64,000 bases of DNA, taken from positions 92,280 to 156,279 of the forward strand of contig PAVO01000030.1 of the NCBI GenBank assembly GCA_002713215.1, written 5' to 3'. The notes beneath the pieces were generated by a model, which saw only the letters and a list, made by a program, of their open reading frames with translations, did no database searches and was not told the DNA's origin. Below, piece by piece: positions 2,216-63,215 of this stretch (its first letter is position 1; every line of letters starts with the position of its first letter). This stretch comes from Crocinitomicaceae bacterium (lineage in GTDB: Bacteria > Bacteroidota > Bacteroidia > Flavobacteriales_G > Salibacteraceae). Position numbers and translations under genes: made by a program.

Positions 2216-2231
2216 ACAACACTTTTGTTGT
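2216..2231 (-). promoter_or_regulatory. Shared palindromic operator / promoter
   Basis: ACAACA-CTTT-TGTTGT. Read on the minus strand, the proximal arm gives -35 TTGTTT, then a 17-bp spacer and -10 TATGAT. It serves the operon beginning at 2151. Confidence 0.85.
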
Positions 2232-2244
2232 GATTGTTGTGAAA

Positions 2245-2688
2245 TTATTCCACTTGATTACGCAACTCCAGTAATTTGCTAATGTTGGGAGGGTGATCAA
2301 GTTCATACCCCACCATGATGCCAAGGAGTTCCTCCAGCGCCAGTGAGCAGAACAAGAAGTATCGTGAGTTTTTAAGTTCTGGCGACGAGTCAAAGTATTC
2401 ACCATCGCGCTCAAGCCAGCAATGCTCCACCACCTTTTCAATCTCGACAGTGTCCTGTTGTAAGCCAAGGCAAAACCTTAACCCTGGTGTAGTGCCGTGA
2501 TTCTTAACTAGTGTCTCAATAACATTGTCAAAGCATTGCAGTGGAACTTGTTCTGCTGCATCTATGCCGCTATCAGCGAGATCTTGAGGCGTCACCTCAA
2601 CCGTCAGCTCTTTTGCCAGCATCGACTGGTACGCTTTGCGATTTTGGTTATCACAGAACTGGTATGTGAATTGGTTGTTGGCTGCCAT
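2245..2688 (-). CDS. Hypothetical protein (147 aa)
   Basis: Unrecognised soluble protein with several cysteines but no clear zinc motif. Its ATG overlaps the stop of the upstream P-loop protein by one base (TAATG), which indicates translational coupling. It is therefore probably in the same operon and may act with that protein. Downstream the next element is the operator of the following operon. Confidence 0.6.
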   Translation of the reverse strand: MAANNQFTYQFCDNQNRKAYQSMLAKELTVEVTPQDLADSGIDAAEQVPLQCFDNVIETLVKNHGTTPGLRFCLGLQQDTVEIEKVVEHCWLERDGEYFDSSPELKNSRYFLFCSLALEELLGIMVGYELDHPPNISKLLELRNQVE

Positions 2689-3356
2689 TAAGCAGCCACC
2701 TTTGCATCGATAATTGCTTCGGCTTCCTTGATGTTGCGACCAACATCAATCAGCTTCGCGTGTTTGGCAATCAATACCTGATCACTATCATCAGGGATAA
2801 GCGTGTAACCCTTGTATACGCCGAACTTGGTGAAACCCATAGTTATCATAAATCGGTCAATACGACGAATGAAGTCTTCCTGAGTTGTACTGTTGTCTAA
2901 AATGACATCAGCCATGTCGCGCGTTACAGAGATTGAGCTTGAATCTTCGCCCTCAGTGCGGTCGCCAGCGTCTAACCAGATAGACAGATCAAACATATTT
3001 TTGGCTTTAACTGCACCGAACTCTTCTGCATGGCGAACGCCATCACAGGTATCATAGCGCTGGTAAATGCGACGAACCAAATTGGTTAATTCTGGTGTGT
3101 TGAACTCATAAATGCCTTCGTACCATTCCTGACGGTGGTTGCGACGGTCTGCGTGGCATTCTTTAGGCGTTTTGTAGCCATACTTATCTTTAAGTTTATC
3201 GTACATGAAAAGGGTAGATGCCATTAACGATGTCGACATAGACGAGATAGCGTAGTGCTGCTCAAGGTGTTCACAGAACGTGCCTTTTCCGCATTCTCCT
3301 TCACCCAATAGCATTAAGCGAAGTCTTGGTCGTTTGTGATAATGTTGTAATGACAT
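2688..3356 (-). CDS. P-loop NTPase, (deoxy)nucleotide-kinase-like
   Basis: The 222-aa protein has an N-terminal Walker A motif GEGECGKGT at about residues 18-26. That form is typical of adenylate-kinase/dNMP-kinase folds and not of AAA ATPases. Arg- and Asp-rich segments later in the chain could form the LID and NMP-binding regions. A role in nucleotide supply, as for phage dNMP kinases, is inferred and the substrate is unknown. The start at 3356 is chosen because ACAGGGGCTTTT precedes it; the longer in-frame TTG reading overlaps the -10 box. It heads an operon with the 147-aa gene. Confidence 0.5.
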   Translation of the reverse strand: MSLQHYHKRPRLRLMLLGEGECGKGTFCEHLEQHYAISSMSTSLMASTLFMYDKLKDKYGYKTPKECHADRRNHRQEWYEGIYEFNTPELTNLVRRIYQRYDTCDGVRHAEEFGAVKAKNMFDLSIWLDAGDRTEGEDSSSISVTRDMADVILDNSTTQEDFIRRIDRFMITMGFTKFGVYKGYTLIPDDSDQVLIAKHAKLIDVGRNIKEAEAIIDAKVAA

Positions 3357-3416
3357 AAAAGCCCCTGTTGCTAACTGTATTTTGTCTGTCCAGTATAACA
3401 ATTCAGAGGCTTAAAA

Positions 3417-3432
3417 ACAACACTTTTGTTGT
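3417..3432 (-). promoter_or_regulatory. Shared palindromic operator / promoter
   Basis: ACAACA-CTTT-TGTTGT; -35 TTGTTT, 17-bp spacer, -10 TATACT on the minus strand. It drives the kinase-like gene and abuts the stop codon of the next operon. Confidence 0.85.
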
Positions 3433-4113
3433 TTAACTTATCCAGCCGGGGAGGTCATCTATATCAATGAGCTCGATTGCTTCCTGATATTTGGGTAAGA
3501 GCTTGGCATGAACACCTTTAATGTAGCTATAAAGCTCTTCACGCTCGACTTCGTGCTCGCCTGCCATGTCGAACTCATAGTCTAACTTTTCGCTCCAGAT
3601 CTCTTGTGCCAACGTGTCGGCATGATTTTCAAGGTGCTTTTTGAACGCTTCAGCTTTACGGCGGCTGGTGAAAGCAAATGTTCTGTTGAACTGGCCACGA
3701 AGTAGATTCGCCCCTTTTAACATCCCTAAGCTAATAAACGAGCACCAGATGCGACCTGGTGTTGTACATGCATTGTAGCCGCTTACATGAACTTCACCCT
3801 TGGTTTCAAATCCTAATATGGGAGGGGTGATAGCGGCATCGCTTTGACGGAAGTATGCTTTGCTTAATACGAGGTGTGAAAACACTTCAACAAGCGGAAC
3901 ATTTTCATCATATAGGCCATTGCGGTTGGGTGATACAAAATAAAGGGTTTTCCCAGCGCGCAAGTTGCTAAAACGTGCTGGTACCGCATCAAGGTTTTCA
4001 TTGATTGATGTTGCTAAGGTATTATTCGTCCACGTGCTCATATTGCCCTTAGGCTCAGCAGGTAGAGAGTTGTGCATGCGCACAGCAGGGTAATGCATGT
4101 AACCGCGATTCAT
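3433..4113 (-). CDS. Hypothetical protein (226 aa)
   Basis: Unrecognised soluble protein. The first about 25 residues may be dispensable because a second in-frame ATG (MSTW) follows. The C-terminal half is helical and charged. Its ATG overlaps the stop of the upstream small gene by four bases (ATGA), so the four genes 4987 to 3433 form one coupled operon. Nothing in the sequence points to a biochemical activity. Confidence 0.6.
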   Translation of the reverse strand: MNRGYMHYPAVRMHNSLPAEPKGNMSTWTNNTLATSINENLDAVPARFSNLRAGKTLYFVSPNRNGLYDENVPLVEVFSHLVLSKAYFRQSDAAITPPILGFETKGEVHVSGYNACTTPGRIWCSFISLGMLKGANLLRGQFNRTFAFTSRRKAEAFKKHLENHADTLAQEIWSEKLDYEFDMAGEHEVEREELYSYIKGVHAKLLPKYQEAIELIDIDDLPGWIS

Positions 4114-4786: not shown

Positions 4787-4789
4787 CGC

Positions 4790-5041: not shown

Positions 5042-5057
5042 ACAACACTTTTGTTGT
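5042..5057 (-). promoter_or_regulatory. Shared palindromic operator / promoter
   Basis: ACAACA-CTTT-TGTTGT; -35 TTGTTT and a weaker -10 (GATCAT) 17 bp away on the minus strand. Its last base is the first base of the stop codon of the 5057-5701 gene. Confidence 0.75.
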
Positions 5058-6252: not shown

Positions 6253-6268
6253 ACAACACTTTTGTTGT
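6253..6268 (-). promoter_or_regulatory. Shared palindromic operator / promoter
   Basis: ACAACA-CTTT-TGTTGT; minus-strand -35 TTGTTT, 16-bp spacer, -10 TATGAT. It serves the operon beginning at 6190. Confidence 0.85.
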
Positions 6269-6865: not shown

Positions 6866-6881
6866 ACAACACTTTTGTTGT
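6866..6881 (-). promoter_or_regulatory. Shared palindromic operator / promoter
   Basis: ACAACA-CTTT-TGTTGT; -35 TTGTTT, 17-bp spacer, -10 TAGCAT. Its outer base overlaps the stop codon of the 6881-7711 gene. Confidence 0.8.
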
Positions 6882-9226: not shown

Positions 9227-9242
9227 ACAACACTTTTGTTGT
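9227..9242 (-). promoter_or_regulatory. Shared palindromic operator / promoter
   Basis: ACAACA-CTTT-TGTTGT; -35 TTGTTT, 17-bp spacer, -10 TAATAT on the minus strand, for the operon beginning at 9173. Confidence 0.85.
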
Positions 9243-11018: not shown

Positions 11019-11093
<75 letters not shown>

Positions 11094-11501: not shown

Positions 11502-11595
11502 TGGTGCTTTCGTCGGGAGTCGAACCCAAGTCTCGCCGGATTAACATGGAGTATCCTCCAAAACCTGTGCAGCTCTGCCATTGAGCTACGAAAGC
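11502..11595 (-). tRNA. tRNA-like gene with insertion in the anticodon arm (Gln-like)
   Basis: The acceptor stem is perfect (GCTTTCG with CGAAAGC, discriminator A, CCA), with canonical D stem GCTC/GAGC and T arm TTGGG-TTCGACT-CCCGA. The anticodon arm starts like tRNA-Gln (ACAGG then TTTTGGA, anticodon TTG). The pairing strand (CC-A-TGT) follows only after seven extra bases, and the total length is 94 nt. Strong outer helices argue against simple decay. Confidence 0.55.
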
Positions 11596-11717: not shown

Positions 11718-11733
11718 ACAACATATTTGTAGT
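11718..11733 (-). promoter_or_regulatory. Degenerate copy of the shared palindrome upstream of the tRNA promoter
   Basis: ACAACATATTTGTAGT matches the consensus ACAACA-N4-TGTTGT except for one arm base. It lies just upstream of the tRNA -35 box and not over it. Confidence 0.45.
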
Positions 11734-12656: not shown

Positions 12657-12672
12657 ACAACACTTTTGTTGT
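12657..12672 (-). promoter_or_regulatory. Shared palindromic operator / promoter
   Basis: ACAACA-CTTT-TGTTGT; -35 TTGTAT, 17-bp spacer, -10 TAATAT on the minus strand, for the operon at 12567. Confidence 0.85.
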
Positions 12673-14939: not shown

Positions 14940-14955
14940 ACAACACTTTTGTTGT
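14940..14955 (-). promoter_or_regulatory. Shared palindromic operator / promoter
   Basis: ACAACA-CTTT-TGTTGT; -35 TTGTTT, 18-bp spacer, -10 TATTAT on the minus strand, for the gene at 14878. Confidence 0.85.
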
Positions 14956-16865: not shown

Positions 16866-16881
16866 ACAACACTTTTGTTGT
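16866..16881 (-). promoter_or_regulatory. Shared palindromic operator / promoter
   Basis: ACAACA-CTTT-TGTTGT; -35 TTGTTT, 17-bp spacer, -10 TACCAT on the minus strand, for the operon at 16803. Confidence 0.85.
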
Positions 16882-17495: not shown

Positions 17496-17511
17496 ACAAC
17501 ACTTTTGTTGT
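17496..17511 (-). promoter_or_regulatory. Shared palindromic operator / promoter
   Basis: ACAACA-CTTT-TGTTGT; -35 TTGTTT, 16-bp spacer, -10 TATTAT on the minus strand, for the lipoprotein gene. Confidence 0.85.
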
Positions 17512-18375: not shown

Positions 18376-18391
18376 ACAACACTTTTGTTGT
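18376..18391 (-). promoter_or_regulatory. Shared palindromic operator / promoter
   Basis: ACAACA-CTTT-TGTTGT; -35 TTGTTT, 17-bp spacer, -10 TATACT on the minus strand. It lies two bases from the stop of the 18394-18795 gene. Confidence 0.85.
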
Positions 18392-19587: not shown

Positions 19588-19603
19588 ACAACATTTTTGT
19601 TGT
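19588..19603 (-). promoter_or_regulatory. Shared palindromic operator / promoter
   Basis: ACAACA-TTTT-TGTTGT; -35 TTGTTT, 17-bp spacer, -10 TATGAT on the minus strand, for the gene at 19524. Confidence 0.85.
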
Positions 19604-20359: not shown

Positions 20360-20375
20360 ACAACATTTGTGTTGT
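20360..20375 (-). promoter_or_regulatory. Shared palindromic operator / promoter
   Basis: ACAACA-TTTG-TGTTGT; -35 TTGTTT, 17-bp spacer, -10 TATAGT on the minus strand, for the gene at 20310. Confidence 0.85.
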
Positions 20376-25708: not shown

Positions 25709-25724
25709 ACAACAATTATGTTGT
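25709..25724 (-). promoter_or_regulatory. Shared palindromic operator / promoter (chemoreceptor)
   Basis: ACAACA-ATTA-TGTTGT; -35 TTGTAA, 17-bp spacer, -10 TAATAT on the minus strand, about 95 bases before the chemoreceptor start. Confidence 0.8.
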
Positions 25725-26932: not shown

Positions 26933-27814
26933 TCATACTACCAAATCAACACCATTAAAACAACACTTTTGTTGTTTTCTGCGGTACAGCAAGGCCCCAG
27001 CTCCCATAAGTAACACTACCGCTGCACCATGAAGTGGGACATTTACGTAATCGCCATCTTCAAACTGAGGTGCGCCAACGTAATCAACATCCTGAACGTT
27101 AGCTATTATCGCGCCGTTAGTAACAAAGCGAGTGTCATCTAGCGTGGCTCCATCACCAAGAATGTAATCTCGGCCGCCAGAAAGAAATGTGCCATTAATA
27201 TCTACGCCACCAATATTGAATTCGCGATACGTCCAGCTTTGTGCAAAGTTAAATATAACGTTATTAGACGTGATCCCGCCCTCAAGCTTTATCGCAGCGC
27301 CAGAGCCCATTTTAGCCTGGCCATAAACATTCACCACCACCCAATCATTTGCTCCGCCAGAGATAGTTAAACTCTCCTGGGAATCAAGCAGTAAGCTATC
27401 GACATTATAAATGTTCTGACTTGCGTCAAAGGTGAGGCTCTCCGTCACATTAGTTCGTGACGCACCGTAATCCAATAGCGAATCACTGAGTTCGGCAATC
27501 ATGGCACCGATACTAGAATCGACACCACATCCCGCCGTCCCTTCCACATTGGCTGAAGGGCTTTGCGAAACATAACCAGAACAGGCATCTCCAGAAATGT
27601 TTACGCCGGCACCGAGTCCAAGGTAATGGGATGCGACTACTGATCCTGATATGTTGGCTTCAGACCCCAATACGATTTGCCCTAATCTTTGACCATGCGA
27701 ACCAGCGACAAATATATTGTCACCTACAAAATCAAAATTAAATGGCTCTGCGTTTGCTGCTTGAGAGAAAATGCCAACGGCAAGAAAGAATGAGGTAAAT
27801 ATACGTTTTTGCAT
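26933..27814 (-). CDS. Choice-of-anchor-A surface protein with PEP-CTERM-like tail
   Basis: The 293-aa secreted protein has a signal peptide (1-22) and a choice-of-anchor-A type beta-rich domain (SGGANDWVVVNVYG and IIFNFAQSW-like strands). It ends in a sorting tail beginning VPLHG with a hydrophobic helix and YRRKQQK. About 14 unusual residues follow the basic cluster because the gene runs through the operator of the next transcript. It probably sits on the cell surface or in the matrix. No sigma-54 site was found upstream, unlike the other three such genes. Confidence 0.75.
   Translation of the reverse strand: MQKRIFTSFFLAVGIFSQAANAEPFNFDFVGDNIFVAGSHGQRLGQIVLGSEANISGSVVASHYLGLGAGVNISGDACSGYVSQSPSANVEGTAGCGVDSSIGAMIAELSDSLLDYGASRTNVTESLTFDASQNIYNVDSLLLDSQESLTISGGANDWVVVNVYGQAKMGSGAAIKLEGGITSNNVIFNFAQSWTYREFNIGGVDINGTFLSGGRDYILGDGATLDDTRFVTNGAIIANVQDVDYVGAPQFEDGDYVNVPLHGAAVVLLMGAGALLYRRKQQKCCFNGVDLVV
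26960..26975 (-). promoter_or_regulatory. Shared palindromic operator / promoter embedded in a CDS end
   Basis: ACAACA-CTTT-TGTTGT; -35 TTGTTT, 17-bp spacer, -10 TAGTAT. It lies within the last 15 codons of the choice-of-anchor-A gene and drives 26449-26901. Confidence 0.8.
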
Positions 27815-28517: not shown

Positions 28518-28564
28518 GTTTGTTATACCTGGTTGATACATTTTAGGAACCCTAAACGAAAAAA

Positions 28565-28584
28565 CCCACCTCCGAAGAGGTGGG
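28565..28584 (-). terminator. Rho-independent terminator of the tmRNA gene
   Basis: CCCACCTC / GAGGTGGG stem with a four-base loop followed by TTTTTT on the minus strand. Confidence 0.9.
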
Positions 28585-28635
28585 CTATCAGTCTTTCTGG
28601 TGCTAGGCACTGACGACCCCGCACAAAGCCGGTTA

Positions 28636-28674
28636 TTAAGCGGCTAGACGTGCACCGTAAACATTGTCGTTTGC
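28636..28674 (-). other. tmRNA proteolysis-tag reading frame
   Basis: The resume codon GCA follows AAAATAACT, as in other tmRNAs. The frame encodes ANDNVYGARLAA and ends TAA-TAA. With the charged alanine the tag is AANDNVYGARLAA, ending in the LAA degron recognised by ClpXP. Confidence 0.9.
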
Positions 28675-28761
28675 AGTTATTTTAGGTTTAGCTTTTTACG
28701 GGGCAACTCCCCCCACGTTGTCAGCGCCGCTTCATGATCCTGTCGAAGCCAGTACACCCCC

Positions 28762-28951: not shown

Positions 28952-28967
28952 ACAACCTATATGTTGT
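28952..28967 (-). promoter_or_regulatory. Shared palindromic operator over the tmRNA promoter
   Basis: ACAACCTATATGTTGT, one mismatch to the consensus; minus-strand -35 TTGTAT, 16-bp spacer, -10 TATTAT, which places the start near 28921. Confidence 0.75.
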
Positions 28968-29017: not shown

Positions 29018-29033
29018 ACAACATAATTGTTGT
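29018..29033 (+). promoter_or_regulatory. Shared palindromic operator / promoter
   Basis: ACAACA-TAAT-TGTTGT; plus-strand -35 TTGTTT, 17-bp spacer, -10 TATCAT, for the exonuclease gene at 29089. Confidence 0.85.
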
Positions 29034-32060: not shown

Positions 32061-32076
32061 ACAACATTTATGTTGT
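32061..32076. promoter_or_regulatory. Shared palindromic operator between divergent genes
   Basis: ACAACA-TTTA-TGTTGT. For the minus gene -35 TTGTAT is followed by TATGAT at a long 19-bp spacing. It may also influence the plus-strand gene at 32144, whose promoter is unclear. Confidence 0.7.
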
Positions 32077-36139: not shown

Positions 36140-36155
36140 ACAACAATTATGTTGT
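36140..36155 (-). promoter_or_regulatory. Shared palindromic operator / promoter
   Basis: ACAACA-ATTA-TGTTGT; -35 TTGTAT, 17-bp spacer, -10 TACACT on the minus strand, for the operon at 36085. Confidence 0.8.
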
Positions 36156-37265: not shown

Positions 37266-37281
37266 ACAACACTTTTGTTGT
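37266..37281 (-). promoter_or_regulatory. Shared palindromic operator / promoter
   Basis: ACAACA-CTTT-TGTTGT; -35 TTGTTT, 16-bp spacer, -10 TAATAT on the minus strand, for the operon at 37185. Confidence 0.85.
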
Positions 37282-38386: not shown

Positions 38387-38402
38387 ACAACATTTATGTT
38401 GT
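38387..38402 (-). promoter_or_regulatory. Shared palindromic operator / promoter
   Basis: ACAACA-TTTA-TGTTGT; -35 TTGTAT, 16-bp spacer, -10 TAATAT on the minus strand, for 37333-38217. Confidence 0.8.
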
Positions 38403-38467: not shown

Positions 38468-38483
38468 ACAACAAATATGTTGT
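38468..38483 (+). promoter_or_regulatory. Shared palindromic operator / promoter
   Basis: ACAACA-AATA-TGTTGT; plus-strand -35 TTGTTT, 17-bp spacer, -10 TAAGAT. With the site at 38387 it forms a back-to-back pair serving divergent genes. Confidence 0.85.
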
Positions 38484-41005: not shown

Positions 41006-41021
41006 ACAACATATATGTTGT
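41006..41021 (-). promoter_or_regulatory. Shared palindromic operator / promoter
   Basis: ACAACA-TATA-TGTTGT; -35 TTGTGT, 17-bp spacer, -10 TATCAT on the minus strand, for the HAD gene. It may also affect the plus gene at 41099. Confidence 0.8.
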
Positions 41022-41572: not shown

Positions 41573-41588
41573 ACAACATTTATGTTGT
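41573..41588. promoter_or_regulatory. Shared palindromic operator between divergent genes
   Basis: ACAACA-TTTA-TGTTGT; plus-strand -35 TTGTTT, 17-bp spacer, -10 TACCAT for the gene at 41648. For the minus gene it lies upstream of a TTGGAT-type -35. Confidence 0.75.
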
Positions 41589-43499: not shown

Positions 43500-43515
43500 A
43501 CAACATTTTCGTTGT
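43500..43515. promoter_or_regulatory. Shared palindromic operator between divergent genes
   Basis: ACAACATTTTCGTTGT, one mismatch; minus-strand -35 TTGTAT, 17-bp spacer, -10 TATCTT for 43153-43398. The plus-strand gene at 43591 may share it. Confidence 0.7.
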
Positions 43516-44886: not shown

Positions 44887-45684
44887 TTAAGCAGTCGCTG
44901 TCTCAGCGTTAATGAACGCGTCTTCCAGCATCTCCATAAGAAGGGCGTCTACATCCGCAAGTGCTTCATTAACTTCGTCTACATCTGCTTTAGCAGGTGA
45001 GCTGGCCATCAAGGTCTTCATCTGACCCAAGTGGAATTCAATGTGAGCTGCGAAATAAGGGAAGCTTCGCTCCAGCTGCACGCCATCAATCAGAGACAAC
45101 TGACCTGGTTTAAGTCCAAATGCAACTTCAACATCATCAGCGAACTTATCACCGAAGCTTGCTGGCTTATTCTTGCGCAGTGAATTCGCACACTGTCGAT
45201 CAGATTTACCAACACGGTCAGCAAATTCACGAACGACCCCACCACAATGGTTATCAACAAGCTTTCGCGCGTTTGTGCGTCGCACCTGGTGAAGATCAAT
45301 GTCGACACCTCGGTTCTGGATGAGATTATCCACCAGCGATTTCAGAGACTTGCTCTTGTATACCCGAGTCATACGCGTCAGGTACTTGGCCAGCGCATTT
45401 GCGTGCGCTTGAGGGAGCATCTCCGGAGATTTGTTGTTGATCAGTGACAAAGAGCCTGGTGACAACTTGAAAGCTTTTTCAATGTCTTCGGTTACTTTAG
45501 GTCCAATTGCAACAGGGTGCGATTCACGCAGGATGCTGTTGCACTGCTCGCGGCTACGGCCGACGGTTTCAGCGAACTTGTCGATGTTACCATCGCACTT
45601 CTGCGAAAGAAGGATAGTCGCATTGATGTGACGTGCAGATTTGATTTGTTCTTCAGTAAAGCGGTTGTTGATAGCTTCGTTCAT
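44887..45684 (-). CDS. DNA-binding protein with two Cro/CI-like HTH repeats
   Basis: Residues about 19-82 and 136-199 are two copies of one domain. Each has an N-terminal helix, a FAETVGRS / FADRVGKS turn with RQC and a helix, then IGPKVTEDIEKAF / FGDKFADDVEVAF, and ends in LSPGSLSLI / LKPGQLSLI. This is the layout of lambda-Cro/CI-type phage regulators with the I-G-x-K-x-A-x-x-I-E signature. A tandem pair in one chain could bind a palindrome as a pseudo-dimer. The C-terminal 60 residues form acidic helices. It lies downstream of a shared operator, so autoregulation is possible. Confidence 0.6.
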   Translation of the reverse strand: MNEAINNRFTEEQIKSARHINATILLSQKCDGNIDKFAETVGRSREQCNSILRESHPVAIGPKVTEDIEKAFKLSPGSLSLINNKSPEMLPQAHANALAKYLTRMTRVYKSKSLKSLVDNLIQNRGVDIDLHQVRRTNARKLVDNHCGGVVREFADRVGKSDRQCANSLRKNKPASFGDKFADDVEVAFGLKPGQLSLIDGVQLERSFPYFAAHIEFHLGQMKTLMASSPAKADVDEVNEALADVDALLMEMLEDAFINAETATA

Positions 45685-45850: not shown

Positions 45851-46045
45851 CTAGCACGCTCCGACCCAGTCGGGATACCTGGCTTTTGAACTCAGAGATG
45901 ACGAAGTGCGACTATTCTGATTCTGGGGAACGTCTTCCGCGAGCGGATCCGTAAAAAAAGCATCTCCAGTCATTCGGGGCTCGTGCTCATCACGTCCCAA
46001 TTTAGTGGTGATATCCAGAAATTTGCGCATTAAACTCTTCATCAT
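45851..46045 (-). CDS. Small hypothetical protein (64 aa)
   Basis: Basic N-terminus, Ser-rich disordered tail; unrecognised. It is the first frame after the operator at 46096-46111 and precedes the double-HTH gene on the same strand. The ribosome-binding site is weak. Confidence 0.45.
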   Translation of the reverse strand: MMKSLMRKFLDITTKLGRDEHEPRMTGDAFFTDPLAEDVPQNQNSRTSSSLSSKARYPDWVGAC

Positions 46046-46095: not shown

Positions 46096-46111
46096 ACAAC
46101 ACTTATGTTGT
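46096..46111 (-). promoter_or_regulatory. Shared palindromic operator / promoter
   Basis: ACAACA-CTTA-TGTTGT; -35 TTGTAA, 17-bp spacer, -10 TAGGAT on the minus strand. It would transcribe 45851-46045 and the double-HTH gene. Confidence 0.8.
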
Positions 46112-47428: not shown

Positions 47429-47444
47429 ACAACGTTTTTGTTGT
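47429..47444 (-). promoter_or_regulatory. Shared palindromic operator / promoter
   Basis: ACAACGTTTTTGTTGT, one mismatch; -35 TTGTTT, 17-bp spacer, -10 TACTAT on the minus strand. It overlaps the stop codon of 47444-47854. Confidence 0.8.
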
Positions 47445-49111: not shown

Positions 49112-49127
49112 ACAACACTTTTGTTGT
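49112..49127 (-). promoter_or_regulatory. Shared palindromic operator / promoter of dnaN
   Basis: ACAACA-CTTT-TGTTGT; -35 TTGTTT, 17-bp spacer, -10 TACTAT on the minus strand. Confidence 0.85.
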
Positions 49128-50899: not shown

Positions 50900-50915
50900 A
50901 CAACACTTTTGTTGT
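50900..50915 (-). promoter_or_regulatory. Shared palindromic operator / promoter
   Basis: ACAACA-CTTT-TGTTGT; -35 TTGTTT, 17-bp spacer, -10 TAATAT on the minus strand, for the operon at 50844. Confidence 0.85.
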
Positions 50916-51240: not shown

Positions 51241-53709
51241 TTAGAGCCGGTTAGAGTAGCGGTATTCGAGTTCCAACGATTTGATGTCTCTGAGGGTGAG
51301 TGAGCGTGTTGTTCTCAGAGGTACCCATCCCTCATTGGTTACAGTAAAGCGCTTGATTGATTTTGCGTTATCCCCATCCACCCCATAAATAACAACACCC
51401 AGTTCCAGTAAAGATTTAAGCAAATCAAGCTTATTTTTATGGTGGGTTATTGAGTCATTTACAGGGATGTGAAACCACGCATTCAAATAATGGTGACGTA
51501 GCCATGCGGTATAATACCCAATCGTCGCGTAGGCAAGCGCATGTCCCTTCGAGAACGCGTACTGCATAGGCGTTTCAATGAAATCAATGATGGCATTGGC
51601 GTCACTTCGAGAAAGCCCCATCTCCTTCAATTCGTTATAGAGTTCCTCCGCACCAGACTCAGTTTGCACAGCCGACGGGGTTCTTACCCAGTGGACAGCG
51701 CGTTCTGGTGACAGTCCGCCAATCTTGGTTAAGATGTCAAAGAACTGCTCTTGGAACACAGGTACCCCTCGTGTTTCTTCGAGAATACCAGATAGAGTTT
51801 GGTTTTCTTCCAGCCCTGATGGGATAGGGCAGCCTCGTTGCTGTATGAAGCTTTCTAGCAGCCCTATTTCGAGAGGCCCCGGACGGTGTAGTGACAACAA
51901 GGCGGCCATGTCTTCAATACTGGTGATGTTTGCACTTTTGACTGATTCATTTATCAATTCGCTTTCAAAATGAAAGATCCCAAGGCCGTTGATGCGCATT
52001 GACTCGAATACTTGTTCTTCATTCAATCGAATGTCATCAATTGATGCAATATCGATTTTGGGGTCCTTAATGGCCGCTTCAATCCAATTAAACGCTTTTA
52101 ACCCAAGTAGATTAAATTGAAATGAAGGAACCTGATCAAGCTCTTCTTTTGACATCCCAATGATATTAATGGGGGTCTGCGGATCCGTCATCGAGAAGAA
52201 AACGCCAGATTGTGATGATGGTGCAGACACCATAGAATCACTATCAAAAATGGTACGTAACCCCGTAAGTAAGCTGATGTTGCAATTTTGATTCAGTAAG
52301 TGCTCAAGGATTTTCTTTACTTCAGGTTCGCTTTCTAACAAACGTGCAGCCACTGGGTAGTTATCAGCCAGTTCCTGTACTGACATGTCCTTGTGCTGAA
52401 ACGGGATAGTATCGGCGATTTGGTCGAGCTCTCGCTTAATCAGACGGTCAGTCTTGTATTTGGGATGTTTAGCAACTGAGCGAAGGGCGGTTTTTATCAC
52501 CATTTTATGAACGTAAATGCCACCAACGTATTTCCCCTTGTGCACCTTCATCATTTCGGCATCCACGTTACTTCGCGCGTTCTCAGAAGAATCGAAGTCG
52601 ATTCTCAATAAAGGAGATGGGCTCGCTTTTAACTTGGAAAAATATAGGTACTCTGACAAGTTATGTGCGACAGGATCTACGTTGGTCATGCCAAATAAAT
52701 GGAAAATAAGGCAGTTTACCTGAGGTCCTCGCATTAGCATGAGCCCGTCACCACGGGCGCTGAAGACCTCCAGTGTACGAAGAAACTTGGCGGAAAGCCC
52801 TTTACTTTCTATAAGGCTCAATTCGTTAGTTAGGCGACTCTGGTAAGTGTCAGCAACATCCTTGCCTAACTCGTTACGTTGAATAAATTCAATTAATGCT
52901 CTGCCGGCCTTGCTTTTTAATGTGCCGGCAGATGATTCGTCTGCTAGCCATTCAGGTATCGTCATTTCATGATGAAGATTTACTGGAGTTGTTTCGCATT
53001 CATTAAAAATTGATTCCAGATTTCGCCCAGAAACAGGTAGGGAAGCGATGACGTTGCCAAAGTTTTTTAGGTATTCTTCGTCAGAATAGAAGCATCCGCC
53101 AGCCTGGATATGCATTCCTGGCTGCAAGGTTTCTTTTGCTCGGATAGCGCTTCGAAGAGAGTCAAATGCCTCTTTGTATTCATCTGAAGCGTAGTGAATA
53201 GGCAAAGACGGGATAATGTCCCAGCGAGCCAGTTCTTCCTTAGGTTGGTTTACCGGCGTTCTCACGTCCCAAAGTAATACAGCATCACAATCTGAGCGTA
53301 AGCGCTTGGCGAAGACGCCCATCTCCTTGTCATTTAACCATGTGTTAGGAATGAATACAGTGATGTCATCATGGTTCGTCGATAAAATGTTGTCTTCCAG
53401 TTGGCGCAGTGAGTCGTAGTTAATTGGCTGGCGGTTTAGCCATACCCGGGCACCATTGTTCTTCGCCAGTATGACAACAGTCTCTTCTCGTTTATTGAAA
53501 CCTAACGTGCGTGCATATACCGGAGTCAATCCAAATTGCTCAGCTGCTTTATCTTGATCGGAGATGTCGCTAAATGGACCGGCATTCGCCAATGGTAAAA
53601 ACTTTGAATTGGTATGTAATTTGATTTGCTCGGCAATCTCAAAGGCACTGTTATAGCCCATACCAAGCGATGCAGATGTGAAGATCTGCACAGGGTTCTG
53701 TGAATTCAT
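51241..53709 (-). CDS. DnaE-like DNA polymerase III alpha homologue with lost catalytic residues
   Basis: The 822-aa C-family polymerase homologue aligns with DnaE through the palm, thumb and fingers: GMTNVDPVAHNL (340-351), LLGLK (534-538), HRPGP (608-612), VPVFQEQ and AFSKGHALAYA (718-728). The palm motif P-D-x-D-x-D-F reads PLLRIDF (366-372) and the third-Asp motif K-F-D-x-L-G-L reads QFNLLGL (531-537). All three metal-binding aspartates are therefore replaced. The N-terminal region occupies the PHP position but lacks its His ligands. The C-terminal OB and tau-binding parts are missing. A structural or inhibitory role is inferred. Confidence 0.8.
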   Translation of the reverse strand: MNSQNPVQIFTSASLGMGYNSAFEIAEQIKLHTNSKFLPLANAGPFSDISDQDKAAEQFGLTPVYARTLGFNKREETVVILAKNNGARVWLNRQPINYDSLRQLEDNILSTNHDDITVFIPNTWLNDKEMGVFAKRLRSDCDAVLLWDVRTPVNQPKEELARWDIIPSLPIHYASDEYKEAFDSLRSAIRAKETLQPGMHIQAGGCFYSDEEYLKNFGNVIASLPVSGRNLESIFNECETTPVNLHHEMTIPEWLADESSAGTLKSKAGRALIEFIQRNELGKDVADTYQSRLTNELSLIESKGLSAKFLRTLEVFSARGDGLMLMRGPQVNCLIFHLFGMTNVDPVAHNLSEYLYFSKLKASPSPLLRIDFDSSENARSNVDAEMMKVHKGKYVGGIYVHKMVIKTALRSVAKHPKYKTDRLIKRELDQIADTIPFQHKDMSVQELADNYPVAARLLESEPEVKKILEHLLNQNCNISLLTGLRTIFDSDSMVSAPSSQSGVFFSMTDPQTPINIIGMSKEELDQVPSFQFNLLGLKAFNWIEAAIKDPKIDIASIDDIRLNEEQVFESMRINGLGIFHFESELINESVKSANITSIEDMAALLSLHRPGPLEIGLLESFIQQRGCPIPSGLEENQTLSGILEETRGVPVFQEQFFDILTKIGGLSPERAVHWVRTPSAVQTESGAEELYNELKEMGLSRSDANAIIDFIETPMQYAFSKGHALAYATIGYYTAWLRHHYLNAWFHIPVNDSITHHKNKLDLLKSLLELGVVIYGVDGDNAKSIKRFTVTNEGWVPLRTTRSLTLRDIKSLELEYRYSNRL

Positions 53710-53795
53710 ATTTTTCTCGCAATTAGTCTTTAGCGTCTTGTGTTGCAGGTAATCGTTAGCAACATTTAAAACAATAACAATTTGACGGGGTAAAT

Positions 53796-53811
53796 ACAAC
53801 ATTTTTGTTGT
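53796..53811 (-). promoter_or_regulatory. Shared palindromic operator / promoter of the dnaE-like gene
   Basis: ACAACA-TTTT-TGTTGT; -35 TTGTAT, 17-bp spacer, -10 TATTGT on the minus strand. Confidence 0.75.
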
Positions 53812-56568: not shown

Positions 56569-57203
56569 GGGTTCACCACTGGTAATCTTCCGCCAAATAA
56601 GTGGTCACGATAGATTCGCATTTCATCAATGCACTCTTGGATATCCACAAGAGCGAGATGCGTCCCTTTCTTGACGGACATTGCTAAATCTTCCAATTCC
56701 GGCGCCCATGCGCGGCAAGATATTGCGAATGCCGATACGTCCAATTGGCGATAATGCATGTAGCCATGCAGAGTAGGCATTTGGGCCATGAAGTAATCAC
56801 GATCAAGCATCAATGAATTGCCCGCAAAGATGGCACCAGTGCGTTGCTTGTGATCGTACTTATCAACACCAAGCGCCTTCATGTGCGCAATAATCATGTC
56901 TTGCGCCTCAGATAGCGTGATGGTTGACTTACGAACTTCATCCAATAGCCCTGATTTTGTGTGTTGCTCAAGTGCCCAAGGGTGTGATTTGGCAATCTCT
57001 TCTTCGGTCTGGTGAATGACGATTCGGATCGGTTCACCAATTTGGTTTAAGTCACGATCAGTGATGATGAAGGCAATCTCAAAAATAGGGTAATATTCCA
57101 TCCCCAACTGACCATTATCTAAGCGCTCATTAAGCCCACCGGTCTCGATATCTCCAAAAGCAAATCGCATTCCAGCGTTCTTATCTGTGGTAATTGATTT
57201 CAT
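56559..57203 (-). CDS. orn: Oligoribonuclease-like DEDDh 3'-5' exonuclease
   Basis: The 214-aa protein is collinear with Orn: DIETGG (Asp18, Glu20), FEIAFIITDRDLN, a SHPWALEQHTKSGL helix, GNSLMLDRDYF (Asp135), HYRQLDVS and THLALVDIQECIDE (His182, Asp187). All DEDDh residues are present. Orn degrades RNA di- to pentanucleotides, including pGpG from cyclic di-GMP. It is transcribed first in an operon with the RlmN-like gene from the operator at 57271-57286. A DNA 3'-5' exonuclease role is a less likely alternative. Confidence 0.85.
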   Translation of the reverse strand: MKSITTDKNAGMRFAFGDIETGGLNERLDNGQLGMEYYPIFEIAFIITDRDLNQIGEPIRIVIHQTEEEIAKSHPWALEQHTKSGLLDEVRKSTITLSEAQDMIIAHMKALGVDKYDHKQRTGAIFAGNSLMLDRDYFMAQMPTLHGYMHYRQLDVSAFAISCRAWAPELEDLAMSVKKGTHLALVDIQECIDEMRIYRDHLFGGRLPVVNPCQ

Positions 57204-57270
57204 GTTGTTTCCCGTGTCGAAACATTAAGTCATTTCATGCTAAACATATTACCATTCAATTGATTTTAAA

Positions 57271-57286
57271 ACAACATTTGTGTTGT
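57271..57286 (-). promoter_or_regulatory. Shared palindromic operator / promoter
   Basis: ACAACA-TTTG-TGTTGT; -35 TTGTTT, 17-bp spacer, -10 TAATAT on the minus strand, for the orn operon. Confidence 0.85.
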
Positions 57287-57302
57287 ATTTGTTGTTTTAA
57301 AT

Positions 57303-57318
57303 TGGCATGGCTGTTGCA
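57303..57318 (+). promoter_or_regulatory. Sigma-54 (-24/-12) promoter of a PEP-CTERM gene
   Basis: TGGCATGGCTGTTGCA with GG-N10-GC spacing, 50 bp before the ATG at 57368 and 17 bp from the divergent shared operator. Confidence 0.75.
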
Positions 57319-57367
57319 GAGGGATTTGTTCTATTTTTCTTACGTCGTATTTTTAAGGAATGATTTG

Positions 57368-58066
57368 ATGAAGTTGTTAACGATCGCCGCTGTTGTAATG
57401 TCTGTCGCCTCAATGGGGGTGCAAGCTAAGTTAGTCGATTCTTCACTTTTTACTGAAGGGGATGATAAGGTTACTCTGCATGAGGAAACTGGGCTTGAAT
57501 GGTTAAAACTTGACGCTACTGATGGTATGAGTTTTAACGAAATTGCGGAAGAAATGGTATCTGGAGGCCAGTTTGAAGGTTGGCGATTCCCGACCTATAG
57601 CGAGGTTCTGGTTTACACAGAAGAGGCGCTTAAACATGTTGACGATTTGATGTTTGGTGACCGCACAGACTCAGTGACGAATGCTTATGTCAACGACAGC
57701 AGAAACGTCATGAAAGCATTGGGTGTTACCGACGGCAGCATCTACTCCAGAAATGGTGCCACTGTTAACGGACTGTATTACGATGATGATGGCGAGTTAC
57801 GTTATACTGCGGCATATACAAATGGCACTCACACTTATAGCGGTTACATTCGATATAACGCCAGAAAAATGCAAGACAAAGACGTTGCAAACGCATACAA
57901 CGGGTTCTTCTTAGTAAGCGACGGTGGGGTTACATGGAGTTCGCTAAATGATCCAACGTTAAACATTAACAACCCAGACGCACCAATAAATGATGTGCCG
58001 GCCCCCTTGATGGGCGCATTTATCGGGCTCGCGATGATGGGGATGAGAAGAAAGCTAAAACCTTAA
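57368..58066 (+). CDS. PEP-CTERM protein (232 aa)
   Basis: Signal peptide (MKLLTIAAVV to VQA), then the same domain as the 39121-39786 protein (GLEWLKLDATDGMS, GGQFEGWRFPT, a late NGFFLVSDGG), and a VPAPLMG sorting tail with hydrophobic helix and MRRKLK. The ATG at 57368 (AAGGAATGATTTG upstream) is chosen; the upstream frame has no signal-peptide character. Export to the surface or matrix is inferred. A sigma-54 promoter precedes it. Confidence 0.85.
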   Translation: MKLLTIAAVVMSVASMGVQAKLVDSSLFTEGDDKVTLHEETGLEWLKLDATDGMSFNEIAEEMVSGGQFEGWRFPTYSEVLVYTEEALKHVDDLMFGDRTDSVTNAYVNDSRNVMKALGVTDGSIYSRNGATVNGLYYDDDGELRYTAAYTNGTHTYSGYIRYNARKMQDKDVANAYNGFFLVSDGGVTWSSLNDPTLNINNPDAPINDVPAPLMGAFIGLAMMGMRRKLKP

Positions 58067-58140: not shown

Positions 58141-58728
58141 CTACGATGCCATTTCTTGCGAGGTAGGAAGCATTGAGTAGAAGGCTCCCAGTTTATTATG
58201 GCACTCTGAAGACAAAGTTAATCGTTTTATCACCTGGTCAAGCTGGTTGTTCCGTTTTTCGATATTACGTAACCCTTGGACGATATCAACCAAGCGCTTG
58301 GCACCAGACAGATCACCTTCTAAAATAAAATTCGCGATGTGATAACCTGCATTGTCACCAACAACCTCAAGATGTACGTTGCAGACGTTATAAAGCCCGC
58401 TATAGCACTTCTCAAGCTTCTTAATGACATCTTCATTTGATTTTTTGACGGGGTCGAGCAAGAACGGGAAAAAGGTCACGACTTCATTGTGGGAAAGCTT
58501 AATGTTGCCGCTAGAAAGTTCACGAATAAAAAAAGATGGATCAACCTTTGTTTCAGCATTCAATGTGACTGGTAGAGCATACTGAAGACTTTCTATACGC
58601 CTGTGACCAAGGCATTTGGCAAATAAGTCCTGGGCCTGTCGAGTGGTAATGAAGCCGAAGTTTTGTTGCAAGAGCAATTTGAAACGTTCGGTCTCTGCGT
58701 TCAATTCCGTTTTGTTGGTGATTTCCAT
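58141..58728 (-). CDS. Hypothetical helical protein (195 aa)
   Basis: The N-terminal 60 residues contain a QAQDLFAKCLGHRRIESLQ helix motif like those at the start of many plasmid-borne proteins; the rest is helical. The function is unknown. It is under the operator at 58786-58801, which it shares closely with the end of the recombinase gene. Confidence 0.6.
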   Translation of the reverse strand: MEITNKTELNAETERFKLLLQQNFGFITTRQAQDLFAKCLGHRRIESLQYALPVTLNAETKVDPSFFIRELSSGNIKLSHNEVVTFFPFLLDPVKKSNEDVIKKLEKCYSGLYNVCNVHLEVVGDNAGYHIANFILEGDLSGAKRLVDIVQGLRNIEKRNNQLDQVIKRLTLSSECHNKLGAFYSMLPTSQEMAS

Positions 58729-58785: not shown

Positions 58786-58801
58786 ACAACTTAATTGTTG
58801 T
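58786..58801 (-). promoter_or_regulatory. Shared palindromic operator / promoter
   Basis: ACAACTTAATTGTTGT, one mismatch; -35 TTGTTG, 17-bp spacer, -10 TATCAT on the minus strand, for 58141-58728. Confidence 0.8.
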
Positions 58802-59867: not shown

Positions 59868-60067
59868 TTCTATAGTTACACCTGACAGAAATAAGACATG
59901 AACGTTACGTTACATCAATTGTGATGTTTATTATTAAGTTGAAATGTCAGGTAACCACCTGATTAAATGATATTAAATTCAACTGTCGCATCGACGTCGT
60001 GTGGCAATCAATTTAATCATGCTATCATTTTATGCATCAGGGAGATATTACGAGCAAAGGAGTGCAG
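59868..60067. promoter_or_regulatory. Divergent intergenic region with inverted repeats
   Basis: 200 bp between the recombinase and XRE genes with no ORF. ACCTGACA near 59879 and TGTCAGGT near 59945 form an inverted repeat, and ACATCAATTGTGATGT near 59910 is nearly palindromic. These are candidate operator or attachment-site elements. No copy of the shared palindrome was seen. Confidence 0.45.
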
Positions 60068-61411
60068 ATGAGCACATATACGTTAGATAAACTTAAAGAT
60101 ATGCGACTCGATCGCGGGTGGAGCCAAAGTGCGTTATCAGAAATGTCAGGCTTATCATCACGAACCATTCAGCGCATTGAAGCAGGTAAGCCAGCATCGA
60201 TTGAAACGGCAAAGGCAATTGCAGCAACCTTTGATGTTGAGAGCATCGAGGTGTTAGGGACGCGAATTAAAACAGAGTCATGCACTTCAGACCCGAAGAA
60301 CTATCGGCAACCGGTTGTGTTTGAGTCGTCTTACTCGCCTAAAGTAGCAGAGTTTTACCATGGTTTTTTATCGTTAATTTTCATCCTGGCTTTGTTTTAT
60401 TGGACGAAATCTACTCAGGATGCGGGAAGTGTAGAATTAAAAATATTCAATGTTTCGGTCCTGTTGATATTCATGTTGACTTCAGGATGGTCATTATTCT
60501 CTCTATTCCACAATAAAAAGGGTCCAAAAGCCCGTTTTGAAATGAAGCCCATAAACCCACTGTTTGTACATTTTGGAGGGGGTTCTGAAATAGGTATGGA
60601 AAGGTACACCCGTAAGTATCCGCTTAAGAAGATGTGTGCAGTAACCGGTGTTAATAGGGAAAATGATCATCTCGTTTATCACTCTTCTTCGTCAAGCACT
60701 CTCATTGTGGGAGAAGAGGGAAGTGGGTTGTCCGTCGCAGCCATTTTCCAATGCTTTCCTCTATTCTGTGAACAGAGAGGTGGACTGATGCTCGTTGATA
60801 GTGAAGACGATCCAGCGTTCCAGTACGTTAAGCAGACCATGAAGAGTGTAGGTAGAGAGGATGACCTGTACTTTGCAGAATTCAATGATGTCAGCAAGAA
60901 AGACTCTCAGTGGTGGTTGAGCGCGCTGGATGAAAGGAAAGTGTTATTTGTGCGCGTTGGAAAGGATGATGATAGTGAAACGGTAACAGATGCCTTTTTT
61001 AGTGCGATATCGAGTAGACGATGGCTTGAGCACACTGAAAACAATCCGAATGGCTCGTTTTTATACCTGAAAGACTCTCACGTAAAAGACCCAGTGAGAC
61101 TTAAGGAACAGCTCATTGATGCGCGAAAACTATCAGGGCTTCGTTCAGTGTTGGCTGTGTATAGGCCGGAAACATTCATGACAGAACAAACACCGACCCT
61201 TGTGAATTACTTCCAGCATAAGCACATTATGAAGATTAATGATCCGAAGGTTGCTGCTCGTTTGCTGGAGCAAATGTCAGTCGAAAGTTACTCTGACCTG
61301 AAGGTGTCAGATATCATTTCTCATGGACCTGGCGAATCATCTTATATGCATTCTGGCCTGGTTTGGAAAAAAGTATCAATGACGTATCTTCACTTCCCGT
61401 ATGCGGAGTAA
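60068..61411 (+). CDS. XRE-HTH protein with membrane helices and degenerate TraD-like ATPase domain
   Basis: The 447-aa protein has an N-terminal XRE/HTH_3 domain (1-64: WSQSALSEMSGLSSRTIQRI), two transmembrane helices (about 97-113 and 124-146), and a C-terminal domain with the strand order of VirD4/TraD coupling proteins. The Walker A position reads GEEGSGLS (215-222), with Leu in place of the catalytic Lys. The Walker B strand FLYLKDS lacks the Glu. ATP hydrolysis is therefore unlikely. AAAGGAGTGCAG decides the start at 60068. A membrane-tethered DNA-binding regulator or partition factor is inferred. Confidence 0.6.
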   Translation: MSTYTLDKLKDMRLDRGWSQSALSEMSGLSSRTIQRIEAGKPASIETAKAIAATFDVESIEVLGTRIKTESCTSDPKNYRQPVVFESSYSPKVAEFYHGFLSLIFILALFYWTKSTQDAGSVELKIFNVSVLLIFMLTSGWSLFSLFHNKKGPKARFEMKPINPLFVHFGGGSEIGMERYTRKYPLKKMCAVTGVNRENDHLVYHSSSSSTLIVGEEGSGLSVAAIFQCFPLFCEQRGGLMLVDSEDDPAFQYVKQTMKSVGREDDLYFAEFNDVSKKDSQWWLSALDERKVLFVRVGKDDDSETVTDAFFSAISSRRWLEHTENNPNGSFLYLKDSHVKDPVRLKEQLIDARKLSGLRSVLAVYRPETFMTEQTPTLVNYFQHKHIMKINDPKVAARLLEQMSVESYSDLKVSDIISHGPGESSYMHSGLVWKKVSMTYLHFPYAE

Positions 61412-61453: not shown

Positions 61454-61469
61454 ACAACATATATATTGT
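61454..61469 (+). promoter_or_regulatory. Shared palindromic operator (variant)
   Basis: ACAACATATATATTGT, one mismatch, upstream of 61534-61818. The spacing to a clear -10 (TAATAT) is about 21 bp, so the promoter geometry is atypical here. Confidence 0.55.
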
Positions 61470-61818: not shown

Positions 61819-61856
61819 TTGTTGGGCGTGAGTGAAAAGTCACGCCCAGTATCTCT

Positions 61857-62084
61857 TTAAGACGCAGGGTTCGACGCAAGGTAGTCTTTTCCCTGCTGCG
61901 TGATAGTGTATTGCTTGCCATCAAACTCAACCATACCGCGATTAACCAGTGAGGCAAACACGCGCATCGTCTGCCCGTGAGAAGACCGGCACCAGCCGTT
62001 ACGGAACGAGACAGTATGGAAAAAGCCCTTTTTGTTCAGGCTGTCTAGGCAGCTGTGTTGTATATGTCCAAGTTTTCGTTTCAT
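61857..62084 (-). CDS. Small winged-helix-like protein (75 aa)
   Basis: The sequence (a TMRVFASLVNRGMVEFDG helix-wing and YTITQQGKDYL) fits a compact winged helix as in small transcription regulators. AAGGATTGACTTC precedes the ATG at 62084. It lies 5 bp after the stop of the 349-aa gene, so it is co-transcribed from the operator at 63200. Confidence 0.55.
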   Translation of the reverse strand: MKRKLGHIQHSCLDSLNKKGFFHTVSFRNGWCRSSHGQTMRVFASLVNRGMVEFDGKQYTITQQGKDYLASNPAS

Positions 62085-62089
62085 TGAAG

Positions 62090-63139
62090 TCAATCCTTAA
62101 GCGGTACGTTTTGCCCGCAACACTCACAAAGCTTGGTTGATGAATTGTGAGATAACTTCAACTTCTTCAGTAAAGCTCTTGCCTCAACAAACGTAAGGCC
62201 ATCGGAGATGTCGTCAAAGAAGTTTTGCAGCTGCTTATCGCTATAATGCTTCTTCAACTCATTAGCAATCGTTTGATGATGACCTACCCCTTTTAGTCTA
62301 ATCATGTAATCAATTGGGTTGAATCCATCAATGCGAGCAATGGCATCTCTAACCAAAGAAATGCAATACTTACCTTCGCTTACCCACTTAAGCACAAGTT
62401 CAAATGGGATTACGTTCTCGCCAAGTTTTTTGTATGCATCACCGAATTTATAGCCGCTGCCATGCTGCATCCCATTGATAATTTCATCAGTTGTTAAATG
62501 TTCTGAATCATAGAGTAAATCAAGGTAGTTTTCTTGGCTCGTGATGACCGTTTCCACCTGTTCTCTGCTAAGTATTGTTGAAATACGTTTTATGGCAGAA
62601 GGTTTTTTCGAGAGCAAGAAATTAAAGTCATCGTCAGTAAAAGGGAAGTCTTTGTGTTTGTATGCGAGCGCGAACGAGTCATCCTGGGGTATCGCAAGTC
62701 TTAAAGTCTCGGTGTCTAAAGCGCATGGCACTAATCCATGCATTTCATTGTAACCACCATGCTTGCTTTTATCCCCTAGCATTATGTTTTTGAAAAACAA
62801 TTTCAACTTGTCAGTTTTAACAAAATCGGGAAGGTAGCTAAAGGAACAATTCGCTTCCTCGTACAATTCAATGATGAAATCATCACTAAGAAGATGCGCA
62901 ACTTCTTTTATGTTTACTTTGCAAAGCTCAGTGTCCTCAAGATAGATTAAAGCGCGTGCTTTTGTTCTTAATTCGACTGGGAGAATCTCAAAAATCCTTT
63001 CCTCTATAGCCATTAGTTTATCGGCTTGCTCTTCAGAACAAGAGCCCGAAGGGATAAGTCCGACATCCTTTTTGAAGTCACATAAGTAACCGTTTTGGTT
63101 AATCTTTATGAGCAAGGTATTAATTATATCGTGAAACAA
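62090..63139 (-). CDS. Hypothetical protein with C-terminal CxxC motif (349 aa)
   Basis: A large, mostly helical protein, unrecognised, ending in CECCGQNVPLKD, a compact possible metal site. The start is a TTG after AAGAGTAGAAA; the next ATG is about 40 codons later. It is the first gene of an operon with the winged-helix-like protein. Confidence 0.6.
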   Translation of the reverse strand: MFHDIINTLLIKINQNGYLCDFKKDVGLIPSGSCSEEQADKLMAIEERIFEILPVELRTKARALIYLEDTELCKVNIKEVAHLLSDDFIIELYEEANCSFSYLPDFVKTDKLKLFFKNIMLGDKSKHGGYNEMHGLVPCALDTETLRLAIPQDDSFALAYKHKDFPFTDDDFNFLLSKKPSAIKRISTILSREQVETVITSQENYLDLLYDSEHLTTDEIINGMQHGSGYKFGDAYKKLGENVIPFELVLKWVSEGKYCISLVRDAIARIDGFNPIDYMIRLKGVGHHQTIANELKKHYSDKQLQNFFDDISDGLTFVEARALLKKLKLSHNSSTKLCECCGQNVPLKD

Positions 63140-63199
63140 TTTCTACTCTTAAATTATTTATTGAACATACAGTCATAATACCGAAAATTCATAACCAAA

Positions 63200-63215
63200 A
63201 CAACATAAATGATGT
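63200..63215 (-). promoter_or_regulatory. Shared palindromic operator / promoter
   Basis: ACAACATAAATGATGT, one mismatch; -35 TTGTTT, 17-bp spacer, -10 TATTAT on the minus strand, for 62090-63139. Confidence 0.75.

Follow-up and report, generated by a model that had tools for sequence, protein, structure and literature searches.

The DNA considered here, a stretch of 64,000 nucleotides which we call the window, forms the end of contig PAVO01000030.1 (C30, positions 92,280 to 156,279) in the Crocinitomicaceae bacterium assembly GCA_002713215.1. It encodes a DNA polymerase III beta subunit, a DnaE-like protein, a 5'-3' exonuclease-like protein and two candidate regulators with helix-turn-helix (HTH) domains, and many of its genes are preceded by a palindrome, ACAACA-N4-TGTTGT (Table 1). 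In total the window harbours 28 exact copies and seven with one arm mismatch; these 35 agree with the "about 36" of an earlier reading made from the letters alone (the sequence-only reading), and the fifteen identical 16-mers with a CTTT spacer counted there were found again among the 28. A first-order Markov simulation of the window produced no copy in 200 runs.

The exact palindrome occurs 162 times in the complete assembly of 5,030,346 bases, the reversed pattern used as a control only once. As many as 159 of these sites are located on five contigs, C30, C4, C7, C9 and C1 (156, 197, 372, 34 and 33 kb; about 793 kb in total), which contain 73, 47, 29, 9 and 1 of them, respectively. The motif is confined to one element, as the sequence-only reading had supposed. 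Scanning 59 related genomes revealed zero to six palindromes each, with at least one in 38. The composite pattern of palindrome, 14–18 bp and TGnTAnnnT gives 123 matches in this genome and none in the reversed control; among 394 other genomes it is found in five, at most twice each. In a dyad census of the element (arms of 5–7, spacers of 0–12, at least six copies) ACAACA-N4-TGTTGT ranks top with 159 copies versus 0.13 expected. Searches for near DNA matches in phages and plasmids gave nothing useful.

The five contigs have a common tetranucleotide profile (correlation with C30 0.70–0.99, lowest for C1) and a GC content near 0.44; pieces of 49 other contigs (C54 and C56 of the 56 contigs were left out) are mostly near 0.40 and correlate with C30 at 0.17–0.47. 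It is likely that the five contigs represent one giant plasmid of about 0.8 million bases, and likely that it is conjugative. Selected ORFs (open reading frames) of C7, 47 and 36 in two sets, match among the best 25 families each Dot/Icm-like conjugation families (with DotB, DotM and TrbC), pilus ATPases, topoisomerase III, ParC, ParE and LigA, and a TraG/D protein is encoded on C7 as well. The nearest annotated relative found is the Alteromonas mediterranea plasmid pAMCP48-600 (NZ_CP018025, 603,655 bp), to which 298 of the 1034 element ORFs have a match (BLASTP, 1e-4). Among the matches listed, the stretch of C7 between about 50 and 360 kb proves largely collinear with this plasmid, so that both plasmids have a common collinear core with conjugation and housekeeping genes. 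Judged by these comparisons the five contigs are distant relatives of this plasmid, which is described in PMC5217437 as a chromid consisting of a plasmid module and a chromosome module. A prophage nature of the element was considered and rejected, as no Terminase_6N is found in the genome and a 19-mer has no match in IMG/VR; each of these points is weak by itself.

Within the element the sites are distributed very unevenly. The accessory part, about 435 kb made up of C30, C4, C9 and the first 48 kb of C7, holds 157 of them, while the core, which is the remaining 324 kb of C7, and C1 hold one each. An ORF of at least 60 amino acids begins 0–110 bp downstream of 140 of the 159 sites, most commonly at 55–69 bp, compared to 14.6% for random accessory positions; this bears out the placement just before genes that had been noticed in the window. 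ORFs were taken from a purpose-made greedy caller, and their start positions are approximate. When intergenic gaps of at least 30 bp are counted, 128 of 398 accessory gaps hold a site (96/264 codirectional, 29/66 divergent and 3/68 convergent), but only 1 of 168 core gaps. Because the sites occupy accessory gaps and positions in front of ORFs and are nearly absent from the core, the palindrome characterizes promoters in one part of the element only. The earlier statement that one regulator could switch the whole element is thus too wide and would apply to the accessory part only.

Read in the direction of the gene, the promoter cassette consists of an A/T-rich flank, ACAACA-AAAG-TGTTGT, TTT, about 12 bp and an extended -10 resembling TGGTATGAT; often a leader follows that ends in CACAGGGGAAACA-N-ATG. 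The dyad is lengthened by the flank, which tends to TAAAACAACA/TGTTGTTTTA. The proximal arm contributes TTGT plus two bases as a weak -35 at 16–17 bp from the -10 (TTGTTT is a poor match to the consensus), so that the palindrome covers the predicted -35 of many promoters, as claimed before. The best -10 starts 18–20 bp past the palindrome in 121 of 150 sites, and at 18 or 19 bp in 112, in a scan which is biased by a bonus for TGn and leaves out the nine sites of C9. The orientation of the spacer follows that of the downstream gene (AAAG in 53, CTTT in 6 of the 150 sites). This fixed direction goes beyond the sequence-only reading, as do the extended -10 and the hairpin-bearing leader. That the sites arose solely by duplication of a single promoter block was rejected, as the arms are constant while spacers and flanks vary. 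In the first 48 kb of C7 a TTGAAATATTTCAA dyad can be found about 17–30 bp upstream of several operators.

Within 30 nt upstream of the start, ACAGGGG is present in 50 of 164 genes led by an operator, in 8 of 459 other accessory genes and in 1 of 282 core genes. Scanning both sides of the 159 sites yielded 61 leaders with a ACAGGGGA-like sequence in the Shine-Dalgarno region, and an identical 19-mer is common to 14 leaders. In these leaders the two flanks of ACAGGGGA can pair, the downstream one taking in the start codon, and the stems vary from leader to leader yet stay complementary (GCATAA/TTATGC, TTAGCCA/TGGCTAA, GATTTCA/TGAAATC), which is covariation. The mean helix score of the 61 leaders is 5.48 versus 4.36 with partners permuted, a value reached in none of 500 permutations; the same holds for 42 non-redundant leaders (5.62 versus 4.35), for 29 leaders cut at the ATG (4.14 versus 3.61) and for other Shine-Dalgarno forms of operator genes (4.92 versus 4.18). 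The first 100 accessory genes without operator score 4.06 versus 4.07 (272/500), the first 80 core genes without operator 4.61 versus 4.31 with A[AG]GA (2/500), and the pAMCP48-600 core 4.47 versus 4.27 (20/500). Judging from these controls, hairpins at the start codon seem more frequent in front of leading genes of the plasmid as a whole, the cassette showing them most strongly. Aligning 30 leaders column by column was uninformative, since the stems float and the pairs do not stand in columns. In many cassettes the ACAGGGGA leader comes with a covarying hairpin around the start codon, which suggests translational control. The element also has a CsrA-like gene (C4:90768-90974), whose product shares 85% identity across 55 residues with the CsrA protein of pAMCP48-600; that a CsrA-like protein would bind these loops is our guess.

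Studying pAMCP48-600 itself reveals a different palindrome. ACAACA-N4-TGTTGT has no copy on this plasmid, where the top dyad of the census is AATCA-N3-TGATT (69 copies versus 1.6 expected); 58 of these copies stand in intergenic DNA, and 64 of the 69 fall within the region from 69 to 241 kb. Between 60 and 245 kb it occurs in 34 of 112 codirectional, 19 of 36 divergent and 0 of 30 convergent gaps, and outside this region in 4 of 222. A TTGA or TTGC starts 11 bp before the dyad in 31 of the 69 cases and TAnTAT begins on its last base, the spacer being 17 bp; the dyad is thus placed between the predicted -35 and -10. Of the 69 sites, 20 have a CACACA leader, compared to a background of 0.7%. No activator is needed at promoters that have an extended -10 or a good -35, and a protein bound between -35 and -10 hinders the polymerase, which is the position of a repressor. 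Because the dyad of pAMCP48-600 is located there, and because of the extended -10 or good -35 elements, a repressor is favoured over an activator, and the two operator positions on promoters needing no activator fit it. This strengthens the proposal of the sequence-only reading that RNA polymerase would be blocked. Given this placement, the same logic seems to be used with a different dyad in a different promoter position, and the likely switch appears to be recoded as related plasmids diverge. Whole records of three control megaplasmids (Photobacterium damselae p1_508, the 882 kb plasmid of Vibrio parahaemolyticus and Pseudomonas FeN3W) contain no ACAACA-N4-TGTTGT, and a dyad census of samples of 160, 120 and 120 kb found none as prominent as in the two plasmids, although such sampling may miss a local regulon. 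The best Vibrio dyad is a tandem array of units of about 97 bp, the best Photobacterium dyad comprises six CTGCC-N5-GGCAG.

Of the two putative regulators named in the sequence-only reading, one is a tandem-HTH protein and the other carries an XRE domain with a long remainder. The tandem-HTH protein may, on weak evidence, be the best repressor candidate: it has no Pfam match, is assigned to a PHROG transcriptional regulator (E 1e-6), and its predicted structure resembles the Rep protein of phage SPC32H (PDB 5d50; 16% identity, Foldseek E 0.11). Among 5.8 billion proteins the XRE protein has two close homologues, each 447 aa long, and three distant relatives; by eye its C-terminal part, which follows membrane helices, resembles a degenerate TraD-type ATPase. 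The core part of the element, in its conjugation region, encodes a divergent sigma-70 factor of 519 aa (C7:82384-83943, minus strand) with 17 database matches, the last five of them weak and to ordinary sigma factors, and one with 31.6% identity on pAMCP48-600. A second sigma factor is encoded at C9:4810-6021. Relatives of the XRE protein were sought in GTDB contigs, those of the beta clamp in IMG/VR and those of the sigma factor in both, with no useful result. A second promoter-like motif, TGAT-N3-ATCA (mostly TGATAnnATCA), often lies about 30 bp before core genes of both plasmids and is found at 16 of 132 operon heads of C7 (about 48–360 kb) and at 19 of 209 of pAMCP48-600. The density of TGATAnnATCA on both strands is 6–7 per 100 kb on both plasmids, including the accessory part, versus 1.7 in chromosome pieces. 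The motif may serve the plasmid's own sigma factor as an extended -10.

Taken together, we consider it rather probable that the 16-bp palindrome is the operator of one plasmid-encoded repressor, acting in 128 gaps of the accessory part, with a burst of expression on entry and additional control at the leader. The same site recurs in many promoters of one element, as in an element-wide master-repressor regulon. A repressor bound to the palindrome would keep RNA polymerase from the -35. On entry of the plasmid into a repressor-free cell, repression would be lifted and a burst of accessory gene expression would follow. The leader hairpin would add translational control, perhaps via the CsrA-like protein of the plasmid.

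Several observations weigh against this interpretation. The assembly of the element consists of five contigs and is not closed, and its binning with the host is not proved. The model of the tandem-HTH protein is poor overall (mean pLDDT 59), Foldseek finds no PDB match for it at E 0.001 or better, and neither candidate regulator has a pAMCP48-600 relative in the protein comparisons run. Concerning the leaders, 114 of the 164 operator genes lack an exact ACAGGGG leader; a weaker hairpin excess is also seen in the first 80 operator-free core genes with AGGA (4.74 versus 4.35, 0/500); the CACACA leaders of pAMCP48-600 give a weak pairing signal (31/500, and 14/500 without repeats); and the folding energy of 130 leaders is no different from that of 120 core genes (z -0.29 versus -0.23). 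Finally, the centre of the palindrome at about -40 is also the position of a class II activator.

A plasmid-encoded class II activator which recruits RNA polymerase to the poor -35 and so turns the accessory part on is the strongest competitor, although an unlikely one. Besides the position of the centre, the poor TTGTTT and the fixed orientation of the spacer would suit it; but an extended -10 lessens the dependence on the -35, and on pAMCP48-600 the palindrome is placed between the -35-like and -10-like elements, where class II activators do not sit. Somewhat less probable still is a direct reading of the palindromic -35 by the 519-aa sigma factor, in which case the sites would define a promoter class and no operator. 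Such a divergent sigma-70 factor is indeed present on the element and on pAMCP48-600. However, the sigma factor is kept by both plasmids while palindromes and their promoter positions differ, a dyad rather suits a dimer, and the sigma gene belongs to the core, which has TGATAnnATCA as its own motif in both plasmids and almost no palindromes. We give little credit to a role in DNA packing, partition or long-range silencing with the promoter position being secondary: 157 sites over about 435 kb and the combined clamp and repressor roles of RK2 KorB, according to PMC11790492, would be in line with it, but the distances to the -10 and the start codon are narrow and convergent gaps are avoided. An intrinsic terminator, as a short inverted repeat followed by TTTT might suggest, is practically dismissed by the gaps (3/68 convergent versus 125/330 codirectional or divergent) and by the placement relative to the start of the next gene.

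The repressor interpretation can be compared with known systems. Like the element, RK2 has plasmid-encoded repressors, KorA and KorB, with operators in several plasmid promoters. It is smaller and has fewer operators. SPbeta also combines a short promoter element repeated across one mobile element (SPBRE) with one repressor, MrpR, which keeps the genes off (PMC10516654); that system comprises nine or ten promoters with a 15-bp motif in a prophage and a recombinase-like MrpR, whereas the megaplasmid-like element described here has 159 sites, its palindrome covers the -35 and is joined by a leader hairpin, and the candidates are HTH proteins. The stoperators of Cluster A mycobacteriophages (PMC6550527) are likewise many repressor sites per genome whose sequence shifts between related elements. 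They are asymmetric, mostly off promoters and number up to 30 per genome; the sites described here do not belong to this class, as their arms are symmetric and 140 of 159 stand just before ORFs. With pAMCP48-600 (PMC5217437, NZ_CP018025) the element shares a largely collinear core, CsrA, a related sigma factor and the possession of its own plasmid-wide palindrome, while the sequence of the palindrome and its place in the promoter differ. RsmQ of pQBR103 (PMC9928087) is a plasmid-encoded CsrA/RsmA homologue too, which binds GGA, best when open in a hairpin loop; it is described to act on host behaviour, whereas the targets proposed here would be the plasmid's own leaders. Among the matches listed from open-licence PMC text (titles and abstract starts), none describes these palindromes or a chromid with a plasmid-wide operator, and the main text of PMC5217437 contains "promoter" 0 times and "palindrom" once. 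The earlier suggestion that motif and host element may be undescribed goes too far for the element, which, being largely collinear with pAMCP48-600, is not entirely new.

More tentatively, and with clearly less confidence than for the repressor, one may imagine that giant conjugative chromids in general place more than 100 cargo operons under a two-layer regulon of one lineage-specific accessory operator and start-codon hairpins, and that operator turnover between lineages, as known from phage immunity groups, would render related megaplasmids mutually "heteroimmune" and lead to a burst of cargo expression upon entering a naive cell. How a plasmid of 0.6–0.8 Mb limits the cost of its cargo is an open question, to which one lineage-specific operator at many accessory promoters, perhaps with a second control at the leader, would, if true, be a direct answer. 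Operator turnover between related plasmids would, if true, extend the idea of phage immunity groups to megaplasmids. As pAMCP48-600 resides in cultured marine Alteromonas strains, the idea is testable there.

Table 1. Palindromes and candidate regulator genes in the window (positions of the window)
Feature	Position	Strand	Remarks
Exact operator/-35 palindrome	2216..2231	-	ACAGGGGA leader; 47 bp before start (2169) of ORF 1687-2169
Exact operator/-35 palindrome	3417..3432	-	
Exact operator/-35 palindrome	5042..5057	-	
Exact operator/-35 palindrome	6253..6268	-	ACAGGGGA leader
Exact operator/-35 palindrome	6866..6881	-	
Exact operator/-35 palindrome	9227..9242	-	
One-mismatch palindrome	11718..11733	unassigned	
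Exact operator palindrome	12657..12672	+	divergent gap
Exact operator/-35 palindrome	14940..14955	-	ACAGGGGA leader
Exact operator/-35 palindrome	16866..16881	-	
Exact operator/-35 palindrome	17496..17511	-	
Exact operator/-35 palindrome	18376..18391	-	
Exact operator/-35 palindrome, TTTT spacer	19588..19603	-	ACAGGGGA leader
Exact operator/-35 palindrome	20360..20375	-	
Exact operator palindrome	25709..25724	+	
Exact operator/-35 palindrome	26960..26975	-	
One-mismatch palindrome	28952..28967	+	66 bp before 29018 site
Exact operator palindrome	29018..29033	+	precedes 5'-3' exonuclease-like gene 29089-29949
Exact operator palindrome	32061..32076	-	divergent gap
Exact operator/-35 palindrome	36140..36155	-	
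Exact operator/-35 palindrome	37266..37281	-	
Exact operator palindrome	38387..38402	+	pair, member 1
Exact operator palindrome	38468..38483	+	pair, member 2
Exact operator palindrome	41006..41021	-	ORF starts flank both sides
Exact operator palindrome	41573..41588	-	overlaps ORF start
One-mismatch palindrome	43500..43515	unassigned	
Tandem HTH protein, candidate repressor	44887..45684	-	two copies of one domain
Exact operator/-35 palindrome	46096..46111	-	51 bp before ORF 45851-46045, itself preceding tandem-HTH gene
One-mismatch palindrome	47429..47444	unassigned	
Exact operator/-35 palindrome	49112..49127	-	precedes DNA polymerase III beta gene 47926-49047
Exact operator/-35 palindrome	50900..50915	-	ACAGGGGA leader
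Exact operator palindrome	53796..53811	-	at called start of DnaE-like gene 51241-53802
Exact operator palindrome	57271..57286	-	
One-mismatch palindrome	58786..58801	-	upstream of ORF 58141-58728
Symmetrically altered palindrome ACATCA-N4-TGATGT	59912..59927	+	upstream of XRE gene
XRE-type HTH protein, 447 aa, second candidate regulator	60068..61411	+	HTH_3 8.7e-12 (scanned from 60032)
One-mismatch palindrome	61454..61469	unassigned	
One-mismatch palindrome	63200..63215	-	upstream of ORF 62090-63139

Some further features of the element were noticed. The window has tRNA genes at 11019-11093 and 11505-11595 and at 28545-28946 a tmRNA which fits the permuted and betaproteobacterial Rfam families; on C7, 37 tRNA genes were called within about 19 kb (352–372 kb), one of them a tRNA-SeC. 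Three window proteins (20384-21814, 21924-23507 and 24106-25587) belong to PHROG families 20046 and 8572; relatives of the second occur in Vibrio phages of 247 kb, and the third contains a chemotaxis-receptor signalling domain. Five genes at C4:2414-7814 are 52–77% identical, with their order kept, to a block of pAMCP48-600 that includes a helicase and a gene annotated as Cas6, and are likely the type IV CRISPR genes mentioned in PMC5217437. Just before the window, C30:82049-90014 harbours genes of the C-C bond lyase, StiP/PELOTA, PRTase, TerD and TerC families (tellurite/stress type). A family of 14 proteins, encoded at 39121-39786 and 57194-58066 of the window and at 12 other places on C30, C4 and C7, has relatives on pAMCP48-600; its members possess a signal-like start and a C-terminal sorting-like tail, which by eye is PEP-CTERM-like.

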